Below, one piece after another: positions 1-47,769 of a DNA stretch of 54,236 nucleotides. This DNA is from Flavobacteriales bacterium. GTDB lineage: Bacteria; Bacteroidota; Bacteroidia; Flavobacteriales_D; Sanyastnellaceae. The stretch's first letter is position 1, and each line of letters starts with the position of its first letter. The notes under the pieces are model-generated. The model had not been told where the DNA came from, did not search any database, and was given only the letters and a program-made list of their open reading frames with translations. The position numbers were made by a program, and so were the translations under genes. The DNA lies in assembly GCA_947462725.1 (NCBI GenBank), contig CANHPZ010000003.1:1-54236 (forward strand), in the 5' to 3' direction.

Positions 1-1731
1 AGCTACGGTGATGGCTATGTGAATGCTGACAACGCCAACCCAGACCGCATCTTCATTAACGATGGTGGTAATAACAATTGGGTTAGCTTCGACTTGGAAG
101 GTATCATCAGCAACAAAGACGCTGTAGGTGCTGTTGTAGAAATCACCGGATCATTCGGTACACAAGTGCGTGAAATTCGTGGTGGTGAAAGCTATGGCAT
201 CACCAATACGTTCTACTGTCACTTCGGTTTGGGTACAGCTACATCAGTAGATCAAGTAACCATCGAATGGCCTTCTGGTATTGAAACAGTAATCAACAAT
301 CCTGAAATCAACACCTGGCACAGCATCGCTGAAAGTCCATGCTACTTAGCTTCTCCATCAATTACAGCCGTTGGTAGCACACAATTCTGCCAAGGTGGAT
401 CTGTTACCCTCCAAGCCGGCACAAACGGTTTGACTTACGCTTGGAACAATGGTCAAAGCGGACAATCCATTACAGTTACACAGCCAGGCAACTACTTTGC
501 TACTGCAACAAGCGCTGAAGGATGTATCGCCATTTCACAATCTATTGCGGTGACTTATGTTGCTGACCAGCCTGCAGGCATTATGGCTTCAGGTGATACT
601 CACATCTGCGACAATTCAAGCACTACCCTTGTTGCTACTCAAGGAACAGCTTATTTGTGGAGCAACGGTGAAACAACACCAACCATCGAGGCAAGTGTTG
701 CTGGTGACTATACTGTGCAAGTTACCGGTCAGTGTGGTACTACTACTTCAGAACCAATTACCATTGAAGTTTCAGCGTCTCCAACTCCTGCAGTTACTAG
801 CGTTGAAATTCAAGCCGGAACTTCTGCTACCTTCACCGTGAATGGTGGTTCTAACGTTAGCTGGTACGACTCTGCAAATGGAACTACACCAATCGCAACA
901 GGCAACACCTATACTACACCAACACTGAACGCATCTGCTTCTTATTGGGTTGAAGATGTGGCTGTATATCCTGGTGATGTTGCAGCAGGTGGTAAGACAG
1001 AGCAAACCATCAACAACGAAGGCCAGTACCAGTCAAACACGACGTACTTCCTATTGTTTGATGCTATGGAAGATGTTATCATCAACACCGTAAAAGTTTA
1101 TGCTGCCGGTGCTGCTGATCGCACGATTGCTGTTGTGGATGCTGCCGGTAACACGATTGCTACAGGAACATTCACTATTCCTGATGGTGAATCAATTGTT
1201 ACGTTGAACTTCTTTGTTCCTGCTGGTACAGGCTACGGCTTGCGCTTGGTGGGTAACAATCCGCAAATGTGGCGTGATAAAGATTCTGCATCTCCATTTG
1301 CATACCCATTCAATATCGGTAACCTGGTATCTATTACCAATACCAACGTGAGTGGTGCCAATACCTACAACTATTACTACTACTTCTATGATTGGAACGT
1401 TCAAGCTCCTGATTTCACTTGCACCAGCGATCGCGTTGAAGTACAAGCGACAATCATCAGCGTTGACGAAATCAGCAACGTGTCTAACATGCAATTGTAC
1501 CCAAATCCAGCCAAGGATCTGGTGAACATCACATTTGGAAGCCTTGTATCTTCAACATTGCAGGTGCAGGTGATTGACCAAGCTGGTCGCATTGTATTGT
1601 CACAACAGTACAACTGCAACACAGGTGCAAACACTCACCAAATGCATGTTGCTAATTTGGCTTCAGGAATTTATCAATTGCAATTGAATATGGGCAACCA
1701 AACGGCGACCCGTAAGATTGTAGTTGAATAA
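1..1731 (+). CDS. T9SS-exported ASPIC/UnbV (CRTAC1-type) protein, 3' part
   Basis: The reading frame is open from the first base of the window, so this is the C-terminal part of a longer gene; the GTG at 19 is internal. The first roughly 100 residues carry an ASPIC/UnbV domain (WPSG, FGLG and the GGESYG segment), which in CRTAC1-like proteins follows FG-GAP/VCBS propeller repeats that would lie upstream of the window. Then come Ig/PKD-like modules, a jelly-roll-like segment, and a C-terminal type A sorting domain (YPNPAKDLV to KIVVE, last ~80 residues). That tail directs export through the type IX secretion system and attachment to the surface or release. A strong terminator follows the stop. 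The substrate is unknown; adhesion or glycan binding is only a guess. Confidence 0.85.
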   Translation, partial: SYGDGYVNADNANPDRIFINDGGNNNWVSFDLEGIISNKDAVGAVVEITGSFGTQVREIRGGESYGITNTFYCHFGLGTATSVDQVTIEWPSGIETVINNPEINTWHSIAESPCYLASPSITAVGSTQFCQGGSVTLQAGTNGLTYAWNNGQSGQSITVTQPGNYFATATSAEGCIAISQSIAVTYVADQPAGIMASGDTHICDNSSTTLVATQGTAYLWSNGETTPTIEASVAGDYTVQVTGQCGTTTSEPITIEVSASPTPAVTSVEIQAGTSATFTVNGGSNVSWYDSANGTTPIATGNTYTTPTLNASASYWVEDVAVYPGDVAAGGKTEQTINNEGQYQSNTTYFLLFDAMEDVIINTVKVYAAGAADRTIAVVDAAGNTIATGTFTIPDGESIVTLNFFVPAGTGYGLRLVGNNPQMWRDKDSASPFAYPFNIGNLVSITNTNVSGANTYNYYYYFYDWNVQAPDFTCTSDRVEVQATIISVDEISNVSNMQLYPNPAKDLVNITFGSLVSSTLQVQVIDQAGRIVLSQQYNCNTGANTHQMHVANLASGIYQLQLNMGNQTATRKIVVE

Positions 1732-1741
1732 GAAACTCATT

Positions 1742-1781
1742 CAAAAAAAAAAGCCACCGAAGTTTCGGTGGCTTTTTTTTT
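1742..1781. terminator. Bidirectional intrinsic terminator
   Basis: A perfect stem GCCACCGA / TCGGTGGC with an AGTT loop is flanked by an A-run on the left and a T-run on the right. It lies between two convergent genes (stops at 1731 and 1795) and can end transcription on both strands. Confidence 0.9.
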
Positions 1782-1794
1782 ATCCGTATGCGAA

Positions 1795-2391
1795 TTATCT
1801 CATTCGTCGGATACGCACCTCTGTGGCTCCATATCCGTAGTGCGAATACGGGGCATCCATAAATTCACAATGCGGATAATATTGATTGAGCATTTTACGA
1901 ATCTCGGCGCGAAGCACTCCTTGACCAATACCATGAATGTACACTACCCTGCTCAGTTTTCTATTCTCAGCAATGCGCAACGTGCGCTCAAAATGTTCGA
2001 GTTGAATCGCGATAATTTCGCTGTTCGACATACGCGCATGGTTGTCGAGTAATTCATGGATATGTAAATCCACTTCCATTACCTCTCCCTTGCGCTTTTG
2101 ACTGTTGGCGTCTTTGTTTTTATAGAGGAGCTTAAACTGCTCCTGAGCCTTCTTGGCAAAGTTCTTATCGATGTTTCGCTCAACAACATCAACGATATCA
2201 GGCTGCGTTGTATCGTACTTCTCCTCTTCCTTGCGGCGGTTTCCCACCAATACCAACTCCTCTATTCTATGCTCATAGGTAAAGCCCTCACGGTCCTCAA
2301 CCAGAACATAATCCTTGGAAGGAAAAGCCACTACAATGCCTTCTCCCTCGTCGTTGAGAAACTTTACGCGATCACCACGCTTGAAATCCAT
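1795..2391 (-). CDS. Smr-domain protein with N-terminal DUF2027-like barrel
   Basis: A 198-residue protein. The N-terminal 50 residues (FKRGDRVKFLNDEGEGIV) look like the small barrel seen in DUF2027 proteins. The C-terminal ~95 residues are an Smr domain, with the VDLHIHEL segment and the HGIGQGVL loop. Smr domains are nucleic-acid binding or nicking modules known from MutS2. Bacteroidota DUF2027-Smr proteins I know of are commonly over 300 residues, so this is a compact version that lacks most of the middle region. It sits alone between rpoD and a convergent T9SS gene. The role in RNA or DNA metabolism is inferred. Confidence 0.85.
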   Translation of the reverse strand: MDFKRGDRVKFLNDEGEGIVVAFPSKDYVLVEDREGFTYEHRIEELVLVGNRRKEEEKYDTTQPDIVDVVERNIDKNFAKKAQEQFKLLYKNKDANSQKRKGEVMEVDLHIHELLDNHARMSNSEIIAIQLEHFERTLRIAENRKLSRVVYIHGIGQGVLRAEIRKMLNQYYPHCEFMDAPYSHYGYGATEVRIRRMR

Positions 2392-2396
2392 AGCTG

Positions 2397-2404
2397 CAAA
2401 TTTA
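2397..2404 (-). promoter_or_regulatory. Putative -7 box (TAAATTTG) of the Smr gene
   Basis: Read on the minus strand the bases are TAAATTTG, an exact TAnnTTTG match. Only five bases separate the box from the ATG, so a transcript made from it would be nearly leaderless. No -33 TTG is visible at the usual distance. Confidence 0.4.
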
Positions 2405-2451
2405 TTCGGGATTAGGCTCGATGCCTTGCCCCTATGACATACACATATACC

Positions 2452-2487
2452 AAAAAAAATGAAAGCCCCGCATTACGGGGCTTTCAT
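2452..2487 (-). terminator. Intrinsic terminator of rpoD
   Basis: A 12-bp perfect stem (2459-2470 with 2476-2487, GAAAGCCCCG core, loop CATTA) is followed on the minus strand by eight U (A-run at 2452-2459). It lies about 50 bp past the rpoD stop. Confidence 0.9.
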
Positions 2488-2539
2488 GATGTTTAACCCA
2501 TGGGCAATGAACAAAATGCCTATGGTTTTATTGAAATTT

Positions 2540-3409
2540 TTATCCGAGGTAGGATTTCAAAATCTTACTTCTGCTGGTGTGCTTGAGGCGACGAATTGCC
2601 TTCTCTTTGATTTGGCGCACACGTTCACGAGTCAAATCGAAGCGTTCACCAATTTCCTCCAAGGTAAGCGGATGCTCTCCGTTCAACCCAAAGTATAAAC
2701 GCACTACATCTGCCTCGCGGCTTGTGAGTGTGCGCAATGAACGCTCAATTTCTTTGCGCAGCGACTCATGCAAAAGGTCTGTATCCGGCGAAGGCGTGTC
2801 GTTGGTTTGCAAAACGTCATACATCGTGCTGCTGCTATCGTCACCATCTTTCAAGGGTGCGTCCATCGACACGTGACGACCGCTATTGCGCATTGACTGC
2901 TTCACTTCATCCAAGGTCATTTCCAAAACCTCAGCCAATTCACCAGGTGTTGGCGGACGCTCAAACTCTTGCTCCAACTTAGCGAATGCCTTGTTGATTT
3001 TGTTGATTGAGCCAATCTTATTGAGAGGAAGGCGAACAATACGTGACTGTTCAGCCAATGCCTGCAATATCGATTGACGAATCCACCAAACTGCGTAAGA
3101 AATGAACTTAAAACCACGCGTTTCATCAAAACGTTGAGCAGCTTTAATCAAACCAAGGTTTCCCTCGTTGATCAAGTCGGGCAAACTCAACCCTTGATTC
3201 TGGTACTGTTTCGATACAGAAACCACAAAACGGAGATTGGCTTTAGTCAATTTCTCCAAAGCAACTTGATCGCCGGCCTTGATGCGCTTGGCCAACTCCA
3301 CTTCCTCTTCTGCAGTAATCAGGTCGACACGACCAATCTCCTGCAGGTATTTGTCCAACGAAGCGGTTTCCCGGTTCGTTACCTGTTTAGTGATTTTTAA
3401 TTGCCTCAT
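2540..3409 (-). CDS. rpoD: Primary sigma factor RpoD (short Bacteroidota type)
   Basis: A 289-residue sigma-70 protein that directs core RNA polymerase to housekeeping promoters. Visible parts are region 1.2 ([18 protein letters not shown]), region 2 ([45 protein letters not shown]), region 3, and region 4 ([28 protein letters not shown]). It lacks the long region 1.1 and non-conserved insert of proteobacterial RpoD, as expected in this phylum, where it recognises TTG(n~20)TAnnTTTG promoters. Those are the promoters called elsewhere in this window. It has its own terminator downstream and is separated by about 100 bp from pnp. Confidence 0.97.
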
Positions 3410-3505
3410 GTATTGTTTTCAATTGTTGGGGATACCCCCGTTTAAGCATTATTGGTTCAAGCAAGATGGCTAAAAAGACAGGTTTAGAACCTATCCAAAA
3501 TCAGC

Positions 3506-5650
3506 TTAGTTCGACTGAGCCTCAGGCTTTGGCAACAAAACCTTGCGCGACAACTTGTACTTGCCGTTCTTGGGGTCTTTGCCAATAACTTGAACTTTAA
3601 TCTTATCACCTTCCTTGAGCACATCGCGCACATCTTCTATGCGCTTCCAATCTATTTCCGATACGTGCAAAAGCGCATCTTGTTTCGGTAGGATCTCGAC
3701 GAACGCACCGAAAGCCTGGATATTCTTGACTACGCCCTCATAAATTTCTCCAACTTCAATTTGCGGAGGGAAAACTATGCTGCGCACACGCTTAAGCGCT
3801 GCATCCAGATTTTCCTTATTGGCTGAAGCAATCTCAACAACACCTTTATTGTCAACCTCGGTAATAGTAACAATGGTGCTTGTGCTCTTTTGAATCTCCT
3901 GAATGATTTTACCTCCGGGGCCGATTACGGCGCCAATCATATCATTTGGAATTTCCAATGAAACAATGCGCGGAGCATGTGGCTTGTAATCATCTGCCGG
4001 CTTATCCATCGTCTTGAGCATTTCTCCCAAGATGTGAAGGCGACCCTGACGGGCTTGTTCCAAGGCGTTCTTAACCATGTCCATGCTCAAGCCTTTGATC
4101 TTGATATCCATCTGACAAGCTGTAATTCCTTTGGATGTTCCGGTAACTTTGAAGTCCATATCGCCGAGGTGATCCTCGTCGCCCAAGATATCCGAAAGTA
4201 TCTGGTACTTCGAGTTGTCCTCGTTGGTGATCATACCCATGGCAATTCCGGAAACAGGAGCAGAAATCTGCACACCGCCATCCATAAGAGCCAATGTACC
4301 CGCACAAACAGTAGCCATTGAAGACGAACCATTCGACTCCAAAATATCTGACACAATGCGGATAGCATATGGACAAACGCTTTGTGGTGGAATAACAGGC
4401 TTCAATGCACGCAAAGCCAAGTTTCCGTGACCAATTTCACGGCGACTTGTAGCACGGATTGGACGAGCCTCACCGGTGCTGTATGGTGGGAAGTTGTAGT
4501 GCAACAAGAAGCGATCTTCGCGAGGCATAACCGCGCTGTCGATCATCTGCTGGTCGAGTTTAGTTCCCAAAGTTAAAGTTGTCAGCGATTGTGTTTCACC
4601 GCGGGTGAACACACTAGATCCGTGAGCACCGGGCAAATACCCTACTTCACTCCAAATCGGACGAATTTGAGTCGTGCTGCGACCATCTAAGCGAATGCCT
4701 TCATTGAGGATCATGTTCCTCATCGCATCCTTCAAACAGTCGTGGTGATATTTATTGAGCAAGAAGCGTTTAGACGCTTTTTCTTCATCTGATATTTGAG
4801 CTTCGAAAGCCTCTTGAATGGCATGAAATGCATCCGAACGAGTAGTCTTGTCAGAAGGAGTCTTAGCTGTCGTGTAATAATTCTCGTAACACTCGCTCCA
4901 AACACGCTTCTTCAACTCTTCATCCTTAGGTTCGTGGTCGTAGCTGCGTTTTGGGCTTGACTTACCAACCTTTGAGGCCATTTCTTGTTGAGCACGGCAT
5001 TGGGCCTTGATGGCTTCGTGAGCAATCTCGAGAGCATGGATCATTTCTGCTTCAGAAACTTCCTTCATCTCCCCTTCTACCATCACGATGCTGTCTAAAG
5101 TACCGGCAACCATCAACTCCAAGTCGGATGTAGCTAGTTGAGCCCAGGTTGGGTTCACTACAATTTGACCATTGATGCGAGCTACACGAACCTCAGAAAT
5201 TGGTCCGTTGAATGGAATGTCAGATACAGCAAGAGCAGCAGAAGCTGCCAAACCAGCAAGACTATCAGACATATTCTCCTTATCGGCAGAAATCAAGTTC
5301 ACTACAACTTGAACCTCTGCGTGAAAATCATCTGGAAACATCGGACGCAATGCGCGATCGATGAGGCGGGCAACAAGAATTTCGTCATCATACGGACGAG
5401 CTTCACGCTTGAAGTAACCGCCGGGGAAGCGGCCTGCTGCCGCATATTTTTCGCGATATTCAACCGTGAGCGGCAGAAAATCGACACCTTCTTTAGCTTG
5501 TGTGCTAGCTACAACCGCAGCCAACAACATTGTATCTCCTTGTCTTACCACAACAGAGCCGTTGGCTTGTTTGGCGAGTTTGCCGGTTTCAATTGTGACC
5601 GGACGACCATCTCCCAAGTCTATGGTTTGGGTTACCAATTCGTAGTTCAT
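3506..5650 (-). CDS. pnp: Polyribonucleotide nucleotidyltransferase (PNPase)
   Basis: At 714 residues this is full family length. PNPase degrades RNA 3' to 5' by phosphorolysis and works in mRNA turnover. The protein has two RNase PH domains joined by a helical linker, then a KH domain ([15 protein letters not shown], near residue 575) and a C-terminal S1 domain ([29 protein letters not shown], from ~625). It lies directly downstream of rpsO on the same strand, the same order as in many bacteria, and a hairpin lies between the two genes. In E. coli that intergenic region carries an RNase III site used for autoregulation; whether this holds here is unknown. Confidence 0.97.
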
Positions 5651-34242: not shown

Positions 34243-34270
34243 AAAAAGAGCCGCAATTGCGGCTCTTTTT
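34243..34270 (+). terminator. Intrinsic terminator
   Basis: A perfect 12-bp stem AAAAAGAGCCGC / GCGGCTCTTTTT with loop AATT. It can act on either strand, but the downstream minus gene ends 120 bp away. Confidence 0.88.
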
Positions 34271-40557: not shown

Positions 40558-41346
40558 TTATCGCGCCGCGCCATTCGACTTCGACCACTGCTGAAAGGCA
40601 TCCAGGAAGAGTGGCACGCGGCGCATGGAGATGGGCAAAACTGTTCCGTCGTTGAATGTGACCTCCACTCCATTTTCGCTTTGCCAACTTTTGATGTGAT
40701 GCAGGTTGATGATCTGCGTATGCTGTATGCGCACGAAGCCATAACCATCGAGTACCTCATCATAATGTTTGATGGGTTTGCACGTGAGCATGCTATCACC
40801 GTTGTGCAAAAATGCATGCGTATACGGACCGTCGCATTCGAGCCTTACCACGTGCTGCGGAGGCAATACGGTATATCCTTTCACATTGGGCAGCACCACC
40901 TCGCGCAATTTTTGTTTGCGCCAATTCGCCGCCAAATGATGGATGGCCGAGCAATAGGATTTCGAAAACGAAGGACTTTCCTCACGCATATGCCGGAGCT
41001 CTTGCAAACGAGCCTCAAGTTCGCGGCATTCGCGCATGGTGATGGGCAGGTGCAAATAATCCAGCGCACACGCGTTGATTTTCCGAACTGATATATGTTC
41101 ATTGGGAACCACAAAAACAACGAAGGGACAATTATCCGAGAGGCTTCCCAATAGTTGAGGGAGCGCTTCGTCGCTCATATCGAGTTGAGTGAAAATAACA
41201 TCAAACTGCCGGCTTAAGCCGCCGGCAGTTGCACTGTCGGTCCATTCGTAAACGTAATCAACATCAAACGTGTGGGAGCACTTATTCAGTTGTGTTTGAA
41301 TAGACTCTCCCAAGTCCCGATCGCGGGTCCATATTGCACAATTCAT
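40558..41346 (-). CDS. LytTR-type regulator with degenerate receiver domain
   Basis: A 262-residue protein. Residues ~1-120 have a CheY-like pattern, but the expected phosphoacceptor Asp is replaced: FDVIFTQLDMSD aligns Gln where the Asp should be, and the N-terminal acidic pair is RDRD. Residues ~155-255 are a LytTR DNA-binding domain (VVRLECDGPYTHAFLHNGDSMLTCKPIKHYDEVLDGYGFVRIQHTQIINLHHIKSW). It probably binds DNA without classical phosphorylation. It faces the duplicated cassette across a 336-bp gap that holds an 18-bp palindrome, so it may regulate that locus and itself. Confidence 0.85.
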   Translation of the reverse strand: MNCAIWTRDRDLGESIQTQLNKCSHTFDVDYVYEWTDSATAGGLSRQFDVIFTQLDMSDEALPQLLGSLSDNCPFVVFVVPNEHISVRKINACALDYLHLPITMRECRELEARLQELRHMREESPSFSKSYCSAIHHLAANWRKQKLREVVLPNVKGYTVLPPQHVVRLECDGPYTHAFLHNGDSMLTCKPIKHYDEVLDGYGFVRIQHTQIINLHHIKSWQSENGVEVTFNDGTVLPISMRRVPLFLDAFQQWSKSNGAAR

Positions 41347-41465: not shown

Positions 41466-41483
41466 ATTAGTACATGTACTAAT
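41466..41483. promoter_or_regulatory. 18-bp perfect palindrome, candidate operator
   Basis: ATTAGTACATGTACTAAT is identical to its reverse complement over all 18 bases and has no loop, which suits a dimeric DNA-binding protein. It lies between the divergent LytTR gene and the cassette. The NarL-type regulator at 44623 or the LytTR protein are possible binders. Confidence 0.55.
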
Positions 41484-41682: not shown

Positions 41683-41997
41683 ATGTCATTCAACGGAAAC
41701 GAAGGCGCAGTCATTTCACTGGCCGATGCTGCAGACCTCACTGCCAATTACCGCGCAACCATTTCAACCGGCGACACCATTGCCATGTTTGTGGGGCGCA
41801 ACAAATTGCTCGATATTCTCAACCAACCCGGCTGCATGGGTGTACGTATCTACTATGGCTTGGACAGCAAAGGAGAAAAACGCATGGTACTCGTGGGCGC
41901 CGCCGCCAATGAGGATGATATGGAGAAGGGGGTGATTGTAGACGAATTAATTAGTTGTCCCAATGCTTGCAGCGCGGCCAATCTGCTTAATTCATAA
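41683..41997 (+). CDS. Small soluble protein of duplicated cassette, copy 1
   Basis: A 104-residue protein with no signal peptide or membrane helix. Visible features are MSFNGNEGAVISLADAADL, FVGRNKLLDILNQPGCMGVRIYYGLD, RMVLVGAAANEDDM and a C-terminal tail CPNACSAANLLNS with a C-x3-C pair. I recall similar small proteins of unknown function in Bacteroidota, recognisable by the GCMGxRIYYGL motif. It is followed after 11 bp by a polytopic membrane protein, and the pair is repeated downstream. This copy has what looks like the native N-terminus. Confidence 0.8.
   Translation: MSFNGNEGAVISLADAADLTANYRATISTGDTIAMFVGRNKLLDILNQPGCMGVRIYYGLDSKGEKRMVLVGAAANEDDMEKGVIVDELISCPNACSAANLLNS
41716..41948. 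repeat. Direct repeat R1a (233 bp), copy 1
   Basis: Aligned without gaps to 42728-42960 at an offset of 1012 bp; I count six mismatches. It spans most of the small cassette gene and begins with the 14-bp motif TCACTGGCCGATGC. Confidence 0.93.
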
Positions 41998-42008
41998 ATT
42001 AATATTGA

Positions 42009-42671
42009 GTGAAGGCAGATTATTTTTTCAATTTACTTTGTTGGATTACCATAATCGTTCAACTCATTAGCACAATTGTGGGTATTAAAGCTTGGCATCT
42101 CTTTAAGCACAAACCCGCATTTTGGCTGTCCATTTATTCCTGTATCGAATTCGTTAGAAGTTTAATCGGTTATTTGATGGCAGCATCCGGCATTAATAAT
42201 CATGGATTCTATTGGTATTCCAAGGATCTTTCTGCTTTAGCCATTTTCATTTTTGGGCTGTCCCTCATACAAGAAAAGAAATTACGCAAATACGTGTCAA
42301 TTGTATTTGCAATTTCATTGTTAATTTCTTTTACGCTTGCATTGCTGCAAACCTCTATTGAAATTAGAAATTTAATAAGACATCACCAATTATTACAGAT
42401 TTCGGTCAGTGCATTCATACTTCGAGATAAGGTAAAAAACAACAATGGACTTCCCTTTAAAAATGACCCCTGGACGATAATTGCCTTGGTAATTTTGGGA
42501 AGTCAATCAATATCTTTATTGTCTATTTATAGTCGTTACTTTTTTGTATCCATGCATAGTACGAACGTCGTCAACATTTTGATGAACTACATAAACTGCT
42601 TTGCCATTCTCTTCTGTTATCTCCTCATTACCATTCAACTCAAGAAATTGAAAAATCTCACGCTAACATGA
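42009..42671 (+). CDS. Polytopic membrane protein of duplicated cassette, copy 1
   Basis: A 220-residue protein with about six or seven hydrophobic helices (for example FFNLLCWITIIVQLISTIVGI, LSALAIFIFGLSLI, YVSIVFAISLLISFTLALL, IIALVILGSQSISLLSIY). Conserved with its paralogue are WLSIY..EF.RSL.G, EKK.R.Y.SI, LRD, DPW..IA..IL, and the identical C-terminus LITIQLKKLKNLTLT. I know no named family. The gene is visibly AT-richer than its neighbours. The stop overlaps the start of the second small gene by 4 bp, so translation is coupled. Confidence 0.75.
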   Translation: MKADYFFNLLCWITIIVQLISTIVGIKAWHLFKHKPAFWLSIYSCIEFVRSLIGYLMAASGINNHGFYWYSKDLSALAIFIFGLSLIQEKKLRKYVSIVFAISLLISFTLALLQTSIEIRNLIRHHQLLQISVSAFILRDKVKNNNGLPFKNDPWTIIALVILGSQSISLLSIYSRYFFVSMHSTNVVNILMNYINCFAILFCYLLITIQLKKLKNLTLT

Positions 42672-42741
42672 TGCTACTTCTCGCGCGTTTGGCGCTCATC
42701 CAAAAAATCCTTTGGTCGCCATTGCGCTCACTCGCCGATGC
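42622..42741. repeat. Direct repeat R2a (120 bp), copy 1
   Basis: Aligned without gaps to 43618-43737 at an offset of 996 bp, with about seven mismatches. It covers the 3' end of the membrane gene and the start of the following ORF. Confidence 0.93.
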
Positions 42742-43009
42742 TGCAGACCTCACTGCCAATTACCGCGCAACCATTTCAACCGGCGACACCATTGCCCTAT
42801 TTGTGGGGCGCAACAAATTGCTCGATATCCTCAACCAACCCGGCTGCATGGGTGTACGTATCTACTATGGCTTGGACAGCAAAGGCGAAAAACGCATGGT
42901 ACTCGTGGGCGCCGCCGCCAATGAGGATGATATGGAGAAGGGGGTGATTGTGGACGAATTGAATCCGTGTACACATGAATGTAGTTCCGCCAATTCGCTG
43001 AACTCCTAA
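42668..43009 (+). CDS. Small soluble protein of duplicated cassette, copy 2 (chimeric N-terminus)
   Basis: A 113-residue protein. From LADAADL onward it is nearly identical to copy 1, except for the tail NPCTHECSSANSLNS, which keeps the C-x3-C spacing but differs in nucleotide sequence. Its first 21 residues (MMLLLARLALIQKILWSPLRS) are unrelated to copy 1 and come from sequence that normally follows the membrane gene, as seen again at 43664. So the start was replaced at the duplication junction. The ATG overlaps the upstream stop. Whether the hydrophobic N-terminus changes localisation is unknown. Confidence 0.75.
   Translation: MMLLLARLALIQKILWSPLRSLADAADLTANYRATISTGDTIALFVGRNKLLDILNQPGCMGVRIYYGLDSKGEKRMVLVGAAANEDDMEKGVIVDELNPCTHECSSANSLNS
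42728..42960. repeat. Direct repeat R1b (233 bp), copy 2
   Basis: Partner of 41716-41948, six mismatches in 233 bases. It starts at the hybrid junction TCACTCGCCGATGC. Confidence 0.93.
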
Positions 43010-43013
43010 GTCC

Positions 43014-43667
43014 ATGTTGTTTTTACATCTATGTGTTTGGATTACCATTGCGTCTCAATTTATTTGCACCCTATATGGATTTAAAGTTTGGAAGCAACTC
43101 AATTTGACAAGTTTAATGTGGCTTTCGATTTATTTTACTTCCGAATTCATGAGAAGTCTAGTGGGGTTTGTGATGGCAAATTTGGCTATCCGAACTAGCT
43201 TATTCTACCACTACTCTGGACAGTTCTCTGAAACGTTATTATTCGTCTTTGCTCTCACAATTCTTAAAGAAAAGAAATTCCGAGTGTACATATCCATTGC
43301 TTATGGCCTTGCTTTATCGACTTTTGCAATACTTGAATTTCTGAATTTGCCAATCGCTGTAAAAGAGCTCATCAGGTATTCAGAATTTCTAGATATTATT
43401 ATTGGAATAGTTCTTCTTCGTGATCGGTTATTACATCAACAGTTTCTCAACTTTAAGCAAGACCCTTGGTCTGTAATTGCGATGATAATATTGGCAACTG
43501 CATCTGTTTCCTTAATTGCAGTTTGCTCTATGTTTTTTTCAACGGAAAATCGAAATCTAAATAGTGTTCATTATTTTTTCGTATATGTAAATTGTTTTTC
43601 AATTCTTATTCGTTACATCCTCATTACCATTCAACTCAAGAAATTGAAAAATCTCACACTAACATGA
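43014..43667 (+). CDS. Polytopic membrane protein of duplicated cassette, copy 2
   Basis: A 217-residue paralogue of the protein at 42009. By eye about 40% of residues are shared over the body, rising to complete identity in the last 15 residues. It has the same number and order of hydrophobic helices. It begins 4 bp after the second small gene and overlaps a short third-copy ORF by 4 bp. It is AT-rich. The strong divergence next to a nearly identical small gene is striking. The function is unknown. Confidence 0.75.
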   Translation: MLFLHLCVWITIASQFICTLYGFKVWKQLNLTSLMWLSIYFTSEFMRSLVGFVMANLAIRTSLFYHYSGQFSETLLFVFALTILKEKKFRVYISIAYGLALSTFAILEFLNLPIAVKELIRYSEFLDIIIGIVLLRDRLLHQQFLNFKQDPWSVIAMIILATASVSLIAVCSMFFSTENRNLNSVHYFFVYVNCFSILIRYILITIQLKKLKNLTLT

Positions 43668-43737
43668 TGCTACTTCTCGCGCGCTGGGCGCTAATACACA
43701 AAATCCTTTGGTCGCCATTGCGCTCACTGGCCGATGC
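43618..43737. repeat. Direct repeat R2b (120 bp), copy 2
   Basis: Partner of 42622-42741. It ends at TCACTGGCCGATGC, the same 14 bases that begin R1a. Confidence 0.93.
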
Positions 43738-43777
43738 CGAATGCATCTGCCGTCGATGCATATACAGCCTTGCTTGA
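43664..43777 (+). pseudogene. Short ORF at the end of the duplication (third, aborted copy start)
   Basis: A 37-residue frame whose first 25 residues parallel the start of small gene copy 2 (MMLLLARWALIHKILWSPLRSLADA) and which then leaves the family (ECICRRCIYSLA, stop). It is either the ancestral short ORF that followed the membrane gene or a truncated third small gene. It keeps a 4-bp overlap with the upstream stop. It probably has no independent function. Confidence 0.6.
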
Positions 43778-43790
43778 TTAATTTCACACC

Positions 43791-44630
43791 ATGGATATTG
43801 AAAGGTTATTCATCATCGGGAGTATCTCCATTCTGGTTTCGGTGATTGCACTCATCTGGATGTTCTACTCATCGCACGTGAGCAGCAGAACGCTGGTGTT
43901 GCAGCGCGATCAAATTCATAAGCTGGAAATCAAAAGTCTGGAGATGGAAAAGCTCAAATCCATTGCTACTGCAGAGGAAGAACAGATGCGACGCATAGGC
44001 CGATATCTGCACGATGAAGTTGGCGGCAACCTGCACGTGCTGTTGCATCTGCTGGAAAAAACGGATACCACTGCCGAAGCTATCGAAGAGAAACTGCTGC
44101 ACAAAGCCGCAGAAATTACGCGCAAGAGCATTCAATCGGTGCGCATCACTTCGCAAGAACTCGTGCCTTACTTCCTGATCAACTTCGGACTAGAGCGCAC
44201 ATTGCAATCCATGGTCGATGATGCCAATGAACTTCCCCGCATGCACGCCTCCTTCTCGGCTTCCTTGCAGTGGCCGTTGGCACAGCTGCCGCAAGAATCA
44301 GCCATACAACTCTACCGGCTCATGCAAGAGGTGTATTCAAACCTGTTGCGTCACGCCAAACCAACGGAGTTTTCCATGCATATCGCAACCAACAACCAGG
44401 GCTTGCAACTGCGCATCGTGCACAACGGCATGGGACTTTCACAACAGGATTATGAACGCATGCTGCATGCCGGCAAATCGCTAGGGCTGAAGAACATCGA
44501 TTACCGCAAACAACTGCTGAATGGTGCATTGACCTATGAGCGCCAACAAGACCGATCTTTGATTGAAATTGCGATTACAATGCCATCGCTACAATTGCAG
44601 CAAACGACAAACGAAAAAGCCATTGGATAA
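43791..44630 (+). CDS. Sensor histidine kinase (HisKA_3/NarX class) without sensory domain
   Basis: A 279-residue protein. One N-terminal membrane helix (about residues 7-26), a short coiled coil, and a HisKA_3 dimerisation helix with the phospho-acceptor His74 (GRYLHDEVGGNL). The ATPase domain has an N-box (LMQEVYSNLLRHAK, Glu180, Asn184) and a G1 box VHNGMGLS, where His211 replaces the usual Asp, then SLGLKNIDYRKQLL. There is no extracellular or PAS-type input domain. It lies 13 bp after the cassette and overlaps the response regulator, so it pairs with that. Input may come from the cassette membrane proteins. Confidence 0.9.
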   Translation: MDIERLFIIGSISILVSVIALIWMFYSSHVSSRTLVLQRDQIHKLEIKSLEMEKLKSIATAEEEQMRRIGRYLHDEVGGNLHVLLHLLEKTDTTAEAIEEKLLHKAAEITRKSIQSVRITSQELVPYFLINFGLERTLQSMVDDANELPRMHASFSASLQWPLAQLPQESAIQLYRLMQEVYSNLLRHAKPTEFSMHIATNNQGLQLRIVHNGMGLSQQDYERMLHAGKSLGLKNIDYRKQLLNGALTYERQQDRSLIEIAITMPSLQLQQTTNEKAIG

Positions 44631-45297
44631 ACGTAACACATCTATAAAAGTTGTGGTCGTTGACGACCATCCGCTGATGCGCGAAGGCATCGTGTCGCAG
44701 CTGCGCCGCGGCAACGGCATCAAGGTCGTGGGTGAAGCTGCGCATGGCCAAGAACTCTTGCAGCTCTTGGATAGCGTGGCAGTGGACGTGATACTGCTCG
44801 ATTTGCAAATGCCGGGAATGAACGGCCCGCAGTCGCTCATTCAACTCAAATCGAATTATCCAAAAATCAAAGTGCTTGTTTTCTCTATGTTCAACGAGCG
44901 GCGTATGATGCGCGAAATGTTGCGCATGGGAGCCAACGGCTACGTCACCAAAGACATCAGCACCGAACATCTTGTAGATGCCATATATAATTTGCAATTC
45001 CGCGGCTATCATGCACAAGACGATGCCATGCGCCAACTGATTGAGGAGGTCAACCAACAACAGCACAGCAGTGAGCCTGAAGTCTTGCAATACGAGAAAC
45101 TCAGTAAACGTGATTTTGAAGTGCTGAATCTCATTTGCGAAGGACTATCGAGCGACGAAATCGCTCCGCGCTTAAACCTATCCAAGCCAACCATTGACTT
45201 GGTTCGCTCAAGACTTATCGCTCACTTTAGAGCGCGCAATGTGGTGCATCTGGTGGCTGAAGCCATACGATTGGGCGTATTCATTCCCCGAGGCTGA
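44623..45297 (+). CDS. NarL/LuxR-type response regulator
   Basis: The TTG at 44623 is taken as start because it overlaps the kinase stop by 8 bp and gives a normal N-terminus (DKRNTSIKVVVVDDHPLMREG); the frame upstream runs through the kinase gene. This gives 224 residues. The receiver has VVVDDH, phosphoacceptor Asp60 in VILLDLQMPGMNG, and Lys in GYVTKD. The LuxR-type helix-turn-helix (LSKRDFEVLNLICEGLSSDEIAPRLNLSKPTIDLVRSRL) is C-terminal. It is the partner of the upstream kinase. The cassette upstream is a plausible target. Confidence 0.9.
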   Translation: MDKRNTSIKVVVVDDHPLMREGIVSQLRRGNGIKVVGEAAHGQELLQLLDSVAVDVILLDLQMPGMNGPQSLIQLKSNYPKIKVLVFSMFNERRMMREMLRMGANGYVTKDISTEHLVDAIYNLQFRGYHAQDDAMRQLIEEVNQQQHSSEPEVLQYEKLSKRDFEVLNLICEGLSSDEIAPRLNLSKPTIDLVRSRLIAHFRARNVVHLVAEAIRLGVFIPRG

Positions 45298-45366
45298 TCA
45301 ATGTAAGCCCCTGCGTTGGTGACCAACACGGCGCAGTTCCTATCTTGCCGAGCACAACACTACAGC

Positions 45367-47769
45367 ATGCTCAAACGAATTCTGCTCATCACCGTAGCCG
45401 CCTTGCTCTTGCTCATCGGCGGTGCTTATTTCTGGTTGAATCACTCGGCCCCACAGTACACCGGTGATATATCCTTACCTGCCTTGCAACAACCGGTAAC
45501 GGTGCACTTCGACGACTTCGGCATACCGCACATCACTGCAGAAAACAACCACGATCTCTTCATGGCCTTTGGCTATGTGCATGCGCAAGAGCGATTGTTT
45601 CAGATGGAAATGATGCGCAGGGCCGGCAGCGGCACATTGGCCGAGATCATTGGTCAGCCCATGATACAAGTCGACCGCACCTTCCTCACTTTGGGCATGA
45701 AGGAATATGCCGAAGCCTCGGCTGCGCGCCTGGAACAGCAACGTGGCACACCCATGTATTCCGCCATAGAAGACTACTTGGCGGGTGTCAATTATTATAT
45801 TGAGCATGGTCCTACTCCACCCGAGTTCAGCATCATTGGCATCACAAAACGCAAGTTTGAACCCGTCGACCTCTATTATATTACCGGTGCCATGGCTTTC
45901 AATTTTTCAATGGCGCAAAAGACAGAGCCCGCCGTGGATTACATCGCCAAACACTTCGGTGCCGACTACCTGAACCAATTGGGCCTTAAGCACGGTGCCG
46001 AATCATCGATTCCCACAACACCACACGACTCGGCTTATTTCTCGGGCATGCTTGGGTTGGCCCACGTGTTTGAAGCAACAGAATCGCTCTTGCCCTTTGC
46101 AACGCTCAATGGAAGCAATGCGTGGGTAATCAGCGGCAGCAAAACCAAGAGCGGCCAAGTCATCGTGAGCAACGACACGCACATCGGGTATATGGTGCCG
46201 CAGACGTGGTATGAGGCGCATTTGAAATCGCCCGAATTTGAAATGTACGGCCACTACCTGGCGGGTGTTCCGTTGGCCATGATTGGCCGCGACCGCCACA
46301 AGGCGTGGGGCATCACCATGTTGCTCAACGACGATATGGACTTCTATGCCGAGCACACATCAGCCGGCGACAGCACGTTGGTTTTGTATGAAAGTGAGTA
46401 CGAGCCTTGCACGCAAAAGCACTACACCATTCGCGTGAAGGGAGCCGAAGACACGGTGGTGAATGTGCGCGTAACGCGTCATGGCCCCATCATCAACGAC
46501 ATTTTCAAGAACATGCCCGCTGAAACTCCGGTGGCGGTGCAGTGGACCTATACCATGCTCGAGAATAACAACCTCGAAGGTTTGTGGGCGCTAAACACCT
46601 CTACCGACCTGGCATCGTTTGAAAGCGGCGTGAGTATGATTCATGCACCGGGCTTGAGTGTGAATTACGGCGATGCTGCGGGACATGTGGCGTGGTGGGC
46701 CTCTGCACGACTGGTAGAGCGCGGCGACAGCGTGAACAGTTGGACCGTGCTCGATGGCAGTGATGCCAACAACGATTGGAAATCCTTCTATCCATTTGCG
46801 ATGAACCCGCGCTGTATTGATCCCGAGCAAGGCTTCATTTACAGCGCCAACGATTGGCCTGGCAACTTACTTGCGCATGCGGGCGGGCGAGCCGACACGC
46901 TGATGTATCCCGGTTATTACAAGCCGCAGTATCGCGCCGATCGCATCCGTTCGCTCATTGAGCCCGAGAATGCATGGACGCTGGAGAAGATGAAATCGCT
47001 CATCAATGATTCACGCAGCACCGTAGACGCGGAAATTATGCAGCAATGGAATAGGCTACTTGCGCAATCGGAATTGGCGAACGATGAACGTTTCAAGCGC
47101 TTGCAATCCACCATGCAATGGAACGGTGAATATGCACCTGAGCTTGTGGCGCCTACACTCTTCAACCGCATGCTTTACCACACCATGCGTTTGGCGATGG
47201 TGGATGAAATGGGCAGCGAGCTGTTCAAGTTATTCCTCACCACGCATCAGTTTCAGCGCAGCATCAAAGCCATGCACGACTATCCTCAAGGGCCGTGGTG
47301 GGATAACATCAGCACAACAGCAAAAGAAACACAAGCCAACATCGTGTTGGCCGCTTTTGATGCCGCCTATTCCGAGTTGGAAGAAAGCTTTGGACACCGC
47401 CCAGAAGAATGGACTTGGGGAAGATCGGCATATGTAGAAATCAAGCATCCGCTTGGGGAAGTGGCGGCACTGAGTCCCTTGTTCAACATGACCAAGCGAC
47501 CAGTATATGGCGGCAATGAAACCATCCATCAATCCGGATTTTATTTGGACAGCACCAGCTATGCGAAGATCTTTTTCGGATCACAAATGCGCACCATGAT
47601 CGACTTTGCTGATGTAGAGCACGGGCTCAACATAACGCCTGTGGGCCAAAGTGGACACCTCTTAAGTCCACATTACGACGACCAAGCAGAGTTGTATGGC
47701 AAGCGAGAGTTTCGTGAGCAGAACCTAGTGGTGAACCCATCGTGGCGGGTGTTGCGCTTTAGTCGTTAG
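45367..47769 (+). CDS. Penicillin acylase / AHL acylase family Ntn-hydrolase
   Basis: The ATG at 45367 begins a signal-anchor (MLKRILLITVAALLLLIGGAYFWL); the upstream frame is not used. This gives 800 residues, the normal family length. The alpha-chain part has VHFDDFGIPHITAEN and MAFGYVHAQERLFQMEMMRR. The autocatalytic site precedes Ser250 in LNGSNAWVISGSKTKSG, which becomes the N-terminal nucleophile of the beta chain; NDTHIGYMVPQTWYEAHL follows. The enzyme acts in the periplasm or on the surface on amides such as N-acyl-homoserine lactones or beta-lactams; the true substrate cannot be told from sequence. Confidence 0.93.
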   Translation: MLKRILLITVAALLLLIGGAYFWLNHSAPQYTGDISLPALQQPVTVHFDDFGIPHITAENNHDLFMAFGYVHAQERLFQMEMMRRAGSGTLAEIIGQPMIQVDRTFLTLGMKEYAEASAARLEQQRGTPMYSAIEDYLAGVNYYIEHGPTPPEFSIIGITKRKFEPVDLYYITGAMAFNFSMAQKTEPAVDYIAKHFGADYLNQLGLKHGAESSIPTTPHDSAYFSGMLGLAHVFEATESLLPFATLNGSNAWVISGSKTKSGQVIVSNDTHIGYMVPQTWYEAHLKSPEFEMYGHYLAGVPLAMIGRDRHKAWGITMLLNDDMDFYAEHTSAGDSTLVLYESEYEPCTQKHYTIRVKGAEDTVVNVRVTRHGPIINDIFKNMPAETPVAVQWTYTMLENNNLEGLWALNTSTDLASFESGVSMIHAPGLSVNYGDAAGHVAWWASARLVERGDSVNSWTVLDGSDANNDWKSFYPFAMNPRCIDPEQGFIYSANDWPGNLLAHAGGRADTLMYPGYYKPQYRADRIRSLIEPENAWTLEKMKSLINDSRSTVDAEIMQQWNRLLAQSELANDERFKRLQSTMQWNGEYAPELVAPTLFNRMLYHTMRLAMVDEMGSELFKLFLTTHQFQRSIKAMHDYPQGPWWDNISTTAKETQANIVLAAFDAAYSELEESFGHRPEEWTWGRSAYVEIKHPLGEVAALSPLFNMTKRPVYGGNETIHQSGFYLDSTSYAKIFFGSQMRTMIDFADVEHGLNITPVGQSGHLLSPHYDDQAELYGKREFREQNLVVNPSWRVLRFSR

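Follow-up and report, generated by a model that had tools for sequence, protein, structure and literature searches.

A candidate polymorphic cell-cell signalling operon of Bacteroidota, with two allelic small-protein/7TM cassettes in tandem in a Flavobacteriales genome

In a 54,236-nucleotide stretch of the genome of a Flavobacteriales bacterium (GCA_947462725.1, contig CANHPZ010000003.1, positions 1 to 54,236; here called the window), we observed an operon that, judged from its sequence, carries two versions of a matched pair of genes, one for a small protein and one for a seven-helix membrane (7TM) protein, before a single histidine kinase and response regulator. Comparison of the two copies with each other and with operons of other genomes indicates that the C-terminal tail of the small protein and the core of the 7TM protein form an exchangeable allelic cassette, as in the agr and ComQXPA pherotypes. 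We consider it fairly probable that the locus is a polymorphic operon for cell-cell signalling of the self-recognition or quorum type, with the small protein as the signal and the 7TM protein as the receptor.

All genes of the operon lie on the forward strand in the order small1, mem1, small2, mem2, kinase, and LuxR-type regulator. The gene small1 (41683 to 41997) encodes a protein of 104 amino acids, soluble by the family alignment and an AF2 model and the candidate signal protein or precursor, and ends in a variable tail, ELISCPNACSAANLLNS (41944 to 41994). It is followed by mem1 (42009 to 42671), a 7TM protein by the model of a family member and candidate receptor allele A; by small2 (42668 to 43009), a frame of 113 amino acids with the tail ELNPCTHECSSANSLNS; and by mem2 (43014 to 43667), assigned by comparison with mem1 as a 7TM protein and candidate receptor allele B. 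The histidine kinase (43791 to 44630) has HisKA_3 and HATPase_c domains and a single transmembrane (TM) helix, and Pfam shows no sensor domain in it. The response regulator (44563 to 45297; start codon uncertain) combines REC and LuxR/GerE domains, and kinase and regulator, with ATPase domain, H-box, and REC domain all present in Pfam searches, form a two-component system. An earlier note on this DNA had described two adjacent units of a small and a membrane gene. Both are present as described and the pair is repeated, but the two-gene unit was incomplete, as the kinase and regulator (43791 to 45297) belong to it. No further copy of the small or 7TM gene was found elsewhere in the same genome. 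A divergent gene for a LytTR-domain regulator (40558 to 41346, reverse strand; Pfam LytTR, 2.6e-10) lies on the other side of small1 and is a possible second target rather than a core part. About 20 bp past the regulator, on the same strand, is a gene of the penicillin-amidase family (45316 to 47769; PF01804, E = 2.5e-190), a family that includes acylases that destroy homoserine-lactone signals. Elsewhere in the window, a 28-bp perfect palindrome, AAAAAGAGCCGCAATTGCGGCTCTTTTT (34243 to 34270), is probably a two-way terminator.

The two tandem copies differ very unevenly along their length. The small-gene segments at 41716 to 41948 and 42728 to 42960 differ at 6 of 233 bases, the count also given in the earlier note. 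The 120-bp ends at 42622 to 42741 and 43618 to 43737, which it had assigned to the membrane genes, do differ at 7 of 120 bases, but only 50 bp of them are genic and the other 70 bp lie after the gene. Between these segments, the 7TM proteins share 43% of their residues overall and 38% in the core, close to the earlier estimate of roughly 40%. The divergence had been placed in the membrane-gene core alone; in fact, the drop begins at 41949, within the last ~17 codons of the small gene. The proposed analysis by segment gave a dS of 0.09 and a dN of 0.009 for the body of the small gene (codons 12 to 87), saturated synonymous divergence for its tail (last 17 codons), a saturated dS of 1.66 (about 1.7) with a dN of 0.57 for the 7TM core, and a dS of 0.09 again for the final 16 codons of the 7TM gene. 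The small body has 4.5 synonymous differences over 53 sites and the 7TM core has 85 over 127 (Fisher P = 3e-14), a contrast that excludes a simple duplication, which would give even identity, as the earlier note had argued. Because neighboring stretches of one repeat are equally old, different alleles must have recombined.

The same contrast is present between closely related operons in other genomes. For L022 and L025, nucleotide identity is 85 to 98% (mostly 93 to 98%) from −300 to +300 of the small gene, 38 to 63% from +300 to +900, which covers the 7TM core, and 95 to 100% beyond, in the kinase. L011/L020 and L088/L100 have the same flank/core pattern, and L012/L034 is less clean. At least three pairs of close operons thus share the pattern of the window, with promoters and kinases that are mostly 85 to 100% identical. 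In L022/L025, L011/L020, and L088/L100, the left boundary falls at nucleotides 240 to 300 of the small gene, and 41949 in the window is nucleotide 267. Replacement of the core of the membrane gene by another allele, one of the explanations offered at the outset, is strongly supported, since single-copy operons elsewhere show just this replacement, with the left boundary in the same place. Diversifying selection on the membrane protein, another of these explanations, fits in part: among close operon pairs, the dN of the 7TM core and tail is several times that of the kinase, but dN/dS above 1 was not found in either the 7TM core or the tail.

Within groups of close operons, the tail follows the 7TM protein. 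In 6 of 6 pairs with 7TM proteins more than 90% identical, the tails are 94 to 100% identical; with 7TM identity below 75%, tail identity never exceeds 83%, and the ranges for the small body overlap. The association is significant in a within-group permutation (P = 0.0002), although the genomes used are related and shared ancestry is only partly removed. Mosaics of the reverse kind also occur (L015/L095 and L069/L124), with tails 100% identical, cores 92 to 94% identical, and bodies only 85% identical. The tail adjoins the 7TM gene, and physical linkage therefore partly explains the joint exchange. Linkage accounts for the co-exchange of tail and core but not for the high diversity of exactly that tract.

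The proposed search for the same pair in other Bacteroidota recovered a four-gene operon, in which the small gene is followed by the 7TM gene, a HisKA_3 histidine kinase, and a LuxR-type regulator. Of 396 sampled Bacteroidia genomes, 83 (from 52 of the 199 genera) encode a relative of the small protein; relatives also occur in 8 of the 100 genomes most closely related to the source genome (itself counted) and at 32 public loci. Among 88 operon loci, defined as distinct small genes with at least 1,300 bases downstream, a polytopic gene directly follows the small gene in all 88 (median gap, 1.5 nucleotides) and the kinase also follows in 82, with the regulator usually next where the sequence extends far enough. 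Distant members have the same gene order. The distribution is patchy, even within genera, and no copy was found in the viral contigs or plasmids searched; the small and 7TM proteins have no match in PADLOC (anti-phage) or PHROGs (phage). Related operons normally hold one pair of small and 7TM genes, whereas the window holds two. Two successive 7TM genes are present in L125, L138, L170, and L175, suggesting more than one receptor per kinase elsewhere, and 7TM-kinase-regulator operons without a small gene are present in L170, L175, and L128.

Some of these loci have doubtful labels or unusual neighbors. L045 (CP034120.1, a complete chromosome labeled Glaciecola amylolytica) is ~80% identical to and collinear with the Fluviicola loci L037 and L047 over 12 kb, and the gammaproteobacterial label is probably wrong for that sequence. 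L016, L018, L019, and L041 come from public MAGs titled Chryseobacterium gleum, but their operons differ strongly and apparently represent different lineages; the titles resemble default labels. Beside the operon in L184 (positions 36 to 4334; genome G068), several frames repeat the Rhs-like motif RYGFNGKE...YDFGARMY, in what resembles an array of Rhs C-terminal ends.

A confident model (AF2, pLDDT 90) shows the small protein as a compact alpha/beta domain followed by an extended tail, and the family is well conserved, with a median pairwise identity of 45% among 90 sequences. A typical tail reads ..CPPxC...NxLNS, and 82 of 88 tails are distinct; no two of the tails read from paralogous operons within one genome are the same. 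The two cysteines are present or absent together (C-x3-C in 86 tails, none in 4, another arrangement in 2). A signal peptide is absent from the usual small protein, the operon encodes no exporter or processing enzyme, and a folded protein of 104 amino acids is unlike a short prepeptide. Immediately 5' of the 7TM, kinase, and regulator genes in L131, however, is a two-domain variant with a hydrophobic, signal-peptide-like N terminus, which together with the paired cysteines hints that the small protein may act outside the cytoplasm. Two-domain small proteins with signal-peptide-like starts and CPxDCGG tails also form tandem pairs at L126 (2369 to 3770) and L142 (642 to 2129), with no recognized 7TM gene of the family adjoining.

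The earlier note had recognized no known family for the pair, and sequence searches of the small and 7TM proteins against Pfam, NCBIfam, PHROGs, PADLOC, and PDB likewise gave nothing beyond chance, as did Foldseek searches of both models (no match at E ≤ 0.001). The 7TM protein, modeled for the family member L022, is predicted to be a seven-helix bundle (pLDDT 91). It shares this overall form with microbial rhodopsins and GPCRs in the PDB (best TM-scores around 0.6, to rhodopsins), but identity is 8 to 18% and there is no sign of common origin. It is the least conserved part of the operon, with a median identity of 17% versus 25% for the kinase. No residue is invariant in the family, which favors a binding or sensing role over an enzymatic one, and we propose that the 7TM protein is a receptor rather than an enzyme, a reading that the operons with 7TM, kinase, and regulator genes but no small gene also favor. 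Its gene adjoins that of the kinase, often overlapping it.

A candidate operator, the 18-bp perfect palindrome ATTAGTACATGTACTAAT (41466 to 41483), lies 200 bp 5' of small1 and 120 bp from the divergent LytTR gene, and is one of three palindromes in the window with arms of at least 8. The sequence TAGTACATGTACTA occurs with up to two mismatches 136 to 215 bp 5' of 16 of 93 related small genes (0.1 expected) and with up to three mismatches 5' of 23 (1.85 expected), counts that come from related genomes and include a few near-duplicates among the 93 loci. It is degenerate or absent in most operons beyond the closer lineages. In its own genome, the operon palindrome is the only perfect match, and no second convincing intergenic target was found; of the near matches, one (C34) is inside a long open frame and one (C49) has no clear target. 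Relatives from another family of the order have extra sites, nearly always intergenic and 90 to 300 bp 5' of a gene, several of them paired at a distance of 21 to 22 bp. The palindrome there precedes genes with type IX secretion (T9SS) sorting domains (Por_Secre_tail or CHU_C; L168, L171, L175, L178, and the neighborhood of L170), an N-acetylmuramoyl-L-alanine amidase gene (Amidase_2; L167), and a second response regulator adjoining the operon (L168 and L169). It also precedes the 7TM-7TM-kinase-regulator operons of L170 (1240 to 4022) and L175 (293 to 3328), which could, if the signalling model is true, receive without producing a signal themselves. In the relatives G536 and G538, a regulator gene beside the operon has its own site. 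From the position of the palindrome, we infer that it is bound by the operon's own regulator.

The closest parallels are with known peptide-pheromone systems. As in ComQXPA of Bacillus (ComX-ComP-ComA), a candidate signal gene, a polytopic receptor, a HisKA_3/HATPase_c kinase (PF07730 and PF02518), and a LuxR-type regulator form one operon; these kinase and regulator domains were found by Pfam in both the window and L022. In comQXPA, the signal C terminus and the membrane domain of the receptor vary most, with kinase and regulator conserved (PMC4008528), and here too variability is concentrated in the small-protein C terminus and the 7TM core. On the other hand, receptor and kinase are separate proteins here, and the small protein is a folded domain of 104 amino acids without similarity to ComX (PF05952). 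Neither ComX nor a ComQ-like isoprenyl transferase was found by Pfam or among the operon genes, and the tails lack a conserved tryptophan such as that at the C terminus of ComX. A published census placed comQXPA-like loci in Firmicutes and no other phylum. The autoinducing agrBDCA system of staphylococci is likewise a four-gene operon, and its hypervariable tract spans parts of the processing protein, signal, and receptor between conserved flanks, which defines allelic groups (PMC10482373). Between closely related genomes, we observed just such an allelic tract between conserved flanks. In contrast to AgrB, with its conserved Cys/His catalytic dyad, the 7TM family has no invariant column and no Pfam match beyond chance, and AgrC is a fused receptor-kinase, whereas 7TM protein and kinase are separate here. 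AgrA is a LytTR-type regulator, whereas the regulator here is of the LuxR type. Kinase and regulator belong to the class of DesK/NarX-type HisKA_3 kinases with NarL/LuxR regulators, but this kinase, with one TM helix and no sensor domain, would leave sensing to the separate 7TM protein. Architecture and variability therefore match ComQXPA and agr, but only the generic kinase and regulator are homologous, making the locus pherotype-like and not a member of either system. Our searches of an open-access library found no peptide-based quorum or kin-recognition system for Bacteroidota, and to our knowledge none is established in this phylum.

In the model we favor, the small protein would be a secreted signal, or its precursor, acting through the variable tail as its specificity part, and the 7TM protein would be the matching receptor that binds this tail. 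The receptor would act on the neighboring one-TM kinase, which would phosphorylate the LuxR-type regulator; the regulator would then bind the TAGTACATGTACTA palindrome and raise expression of its own operon (self-induction), and in relatives also that of genes for exported proteins as the output. Tail and receptor core would be exchanged jointly between conserved flanks, and lineages with different cassettes should therefore not hear each other. The weakest link of this model is the export of the small protein. A possible but less likely alternative is that the 7TM protein senses the environment, with the small protein as a cytoplasmic partner whose tail docks to it and changes with it; diversity would then stem from changing external ligands or from phage or bacteriocin attack on the exposed 7TM protein, and no signal would pass between cells. 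This would agree with the lack of a signal peptide in most small proteins, with the presence of a small gene in nearly every operon, and with the linkage of tail and core. It sits less well with the signal-peptide-like variant in the same operon position, the paired tail cysteines, the 7TM-kinase-regulator operons that lack a small gene, and the restriction of variability in the small protein to a short, ligand-like end. We regard as improbable a toxin-immunity pair, in which the small protein would act as a toxin or bacteriocin, the 7TM protein would confer immunity to it, and the two would diversify together under a shared two-component regulator. A variable tail with a variable membrane partner, and the predicted co-regulation of exported proteins and an amidase in relatives, would suit such a pair, but 7TM genes lie beside the kinase gene, in many cases overlapping it, and accompany it even where the small gene is absent, and the conserved folded body has no toxin likeness in Pfam, NCBIfam, PADLOC, or PDB.

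The tandem in the window places two cassette alleles before one kinase and regulator. The 14-mer TCACTGGCCGATGC occurs at 41716 to 41729 (small1 codons 12 to 16) and, after mem2, at 43724 to 43737, and direct reading of the three sequences shows after-mem1 sequence fused to codon 12 of the second small gene at the corresponding site, TCACTCGCCGATGC (42728 to 42741). The second copy of the after-mem sequence (43665 to 43737, matching 42669 to 42741 with 6 differences in 73) ends at this microhomology. A 14-bp shared sequence at the junction is the expected trace of unequal recombination, which seems to have left its mark on small2 as well. This gene lacks the usual first 11 codons and has in their place MMLLLARLALIQKILWSPLR, derived from after-gene sequence, and it opens with 20 foreign, partly hydrophobic residues because recombination joined after-mem1 sequence to the small gene. 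Its start overlaps the mem1 stop, and translation may begin there or further in. An origin of this N terminus from an old kinase N terminus was rejected, because the kinase of the nearest relative, L016, aligns with that of the window from 43791 and the frame from 43664 ends before that position.

Two alleles may have recombined in one step, or a duplication may have been followed by exchange of one cassette; unequal recombination between two alleles would yield the flank/core pattern in a single step. A plain tandem duplication with later conversion of the flanks only, without allelic exchange, would give near-identical flanks around a divergent core but is very unlikely, because the same contrast separates single-copy operons of different genomes, beyond the reach of conversion between tandem copies; flank conversion alone, as first suggested, is unnecessary, since the flanks are conserved parts of the locus and joined alleles suffice. 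It is equally hard to credit that an assembly chimera collapsed the alleles of two strains into one contig: the genome is a draft of 238 contigs and such alleles do occur in nature, but joining haplotypes head to tail would need a real junction from cassette end to codon 12, where only 14 bp are common, the differences at 6 of 233 and 7 of 120 positions leave no very long exact repeat to mislead an assembler, and the copies differ throughout, with a junction base (42733) that matches neither parent.

Overall, we lean toward the view that these operons represent an undescribed and widespread pheromone family of Bacteroidota, in which a small, folded protein whose tail is specific to the allele would act on a stand-alone 7TM receptor, a conserved kinase and regulator would control their own operon and exported products, and exchange of the cassette would create new communication groups. 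If so, about a fifth of Bacteroidia genomes hold such a system, wholly unannotated, and the pheromone reading could be tested directly with the allele pairs, tails, receptors, and operator given above. With two cassettes recombined at a 14-bp microhomology, this cell may both signal and listen on two channels; its duplicated operon would serve as a natural two-channel receiver and offer a snapshot of communication groups as they arise.
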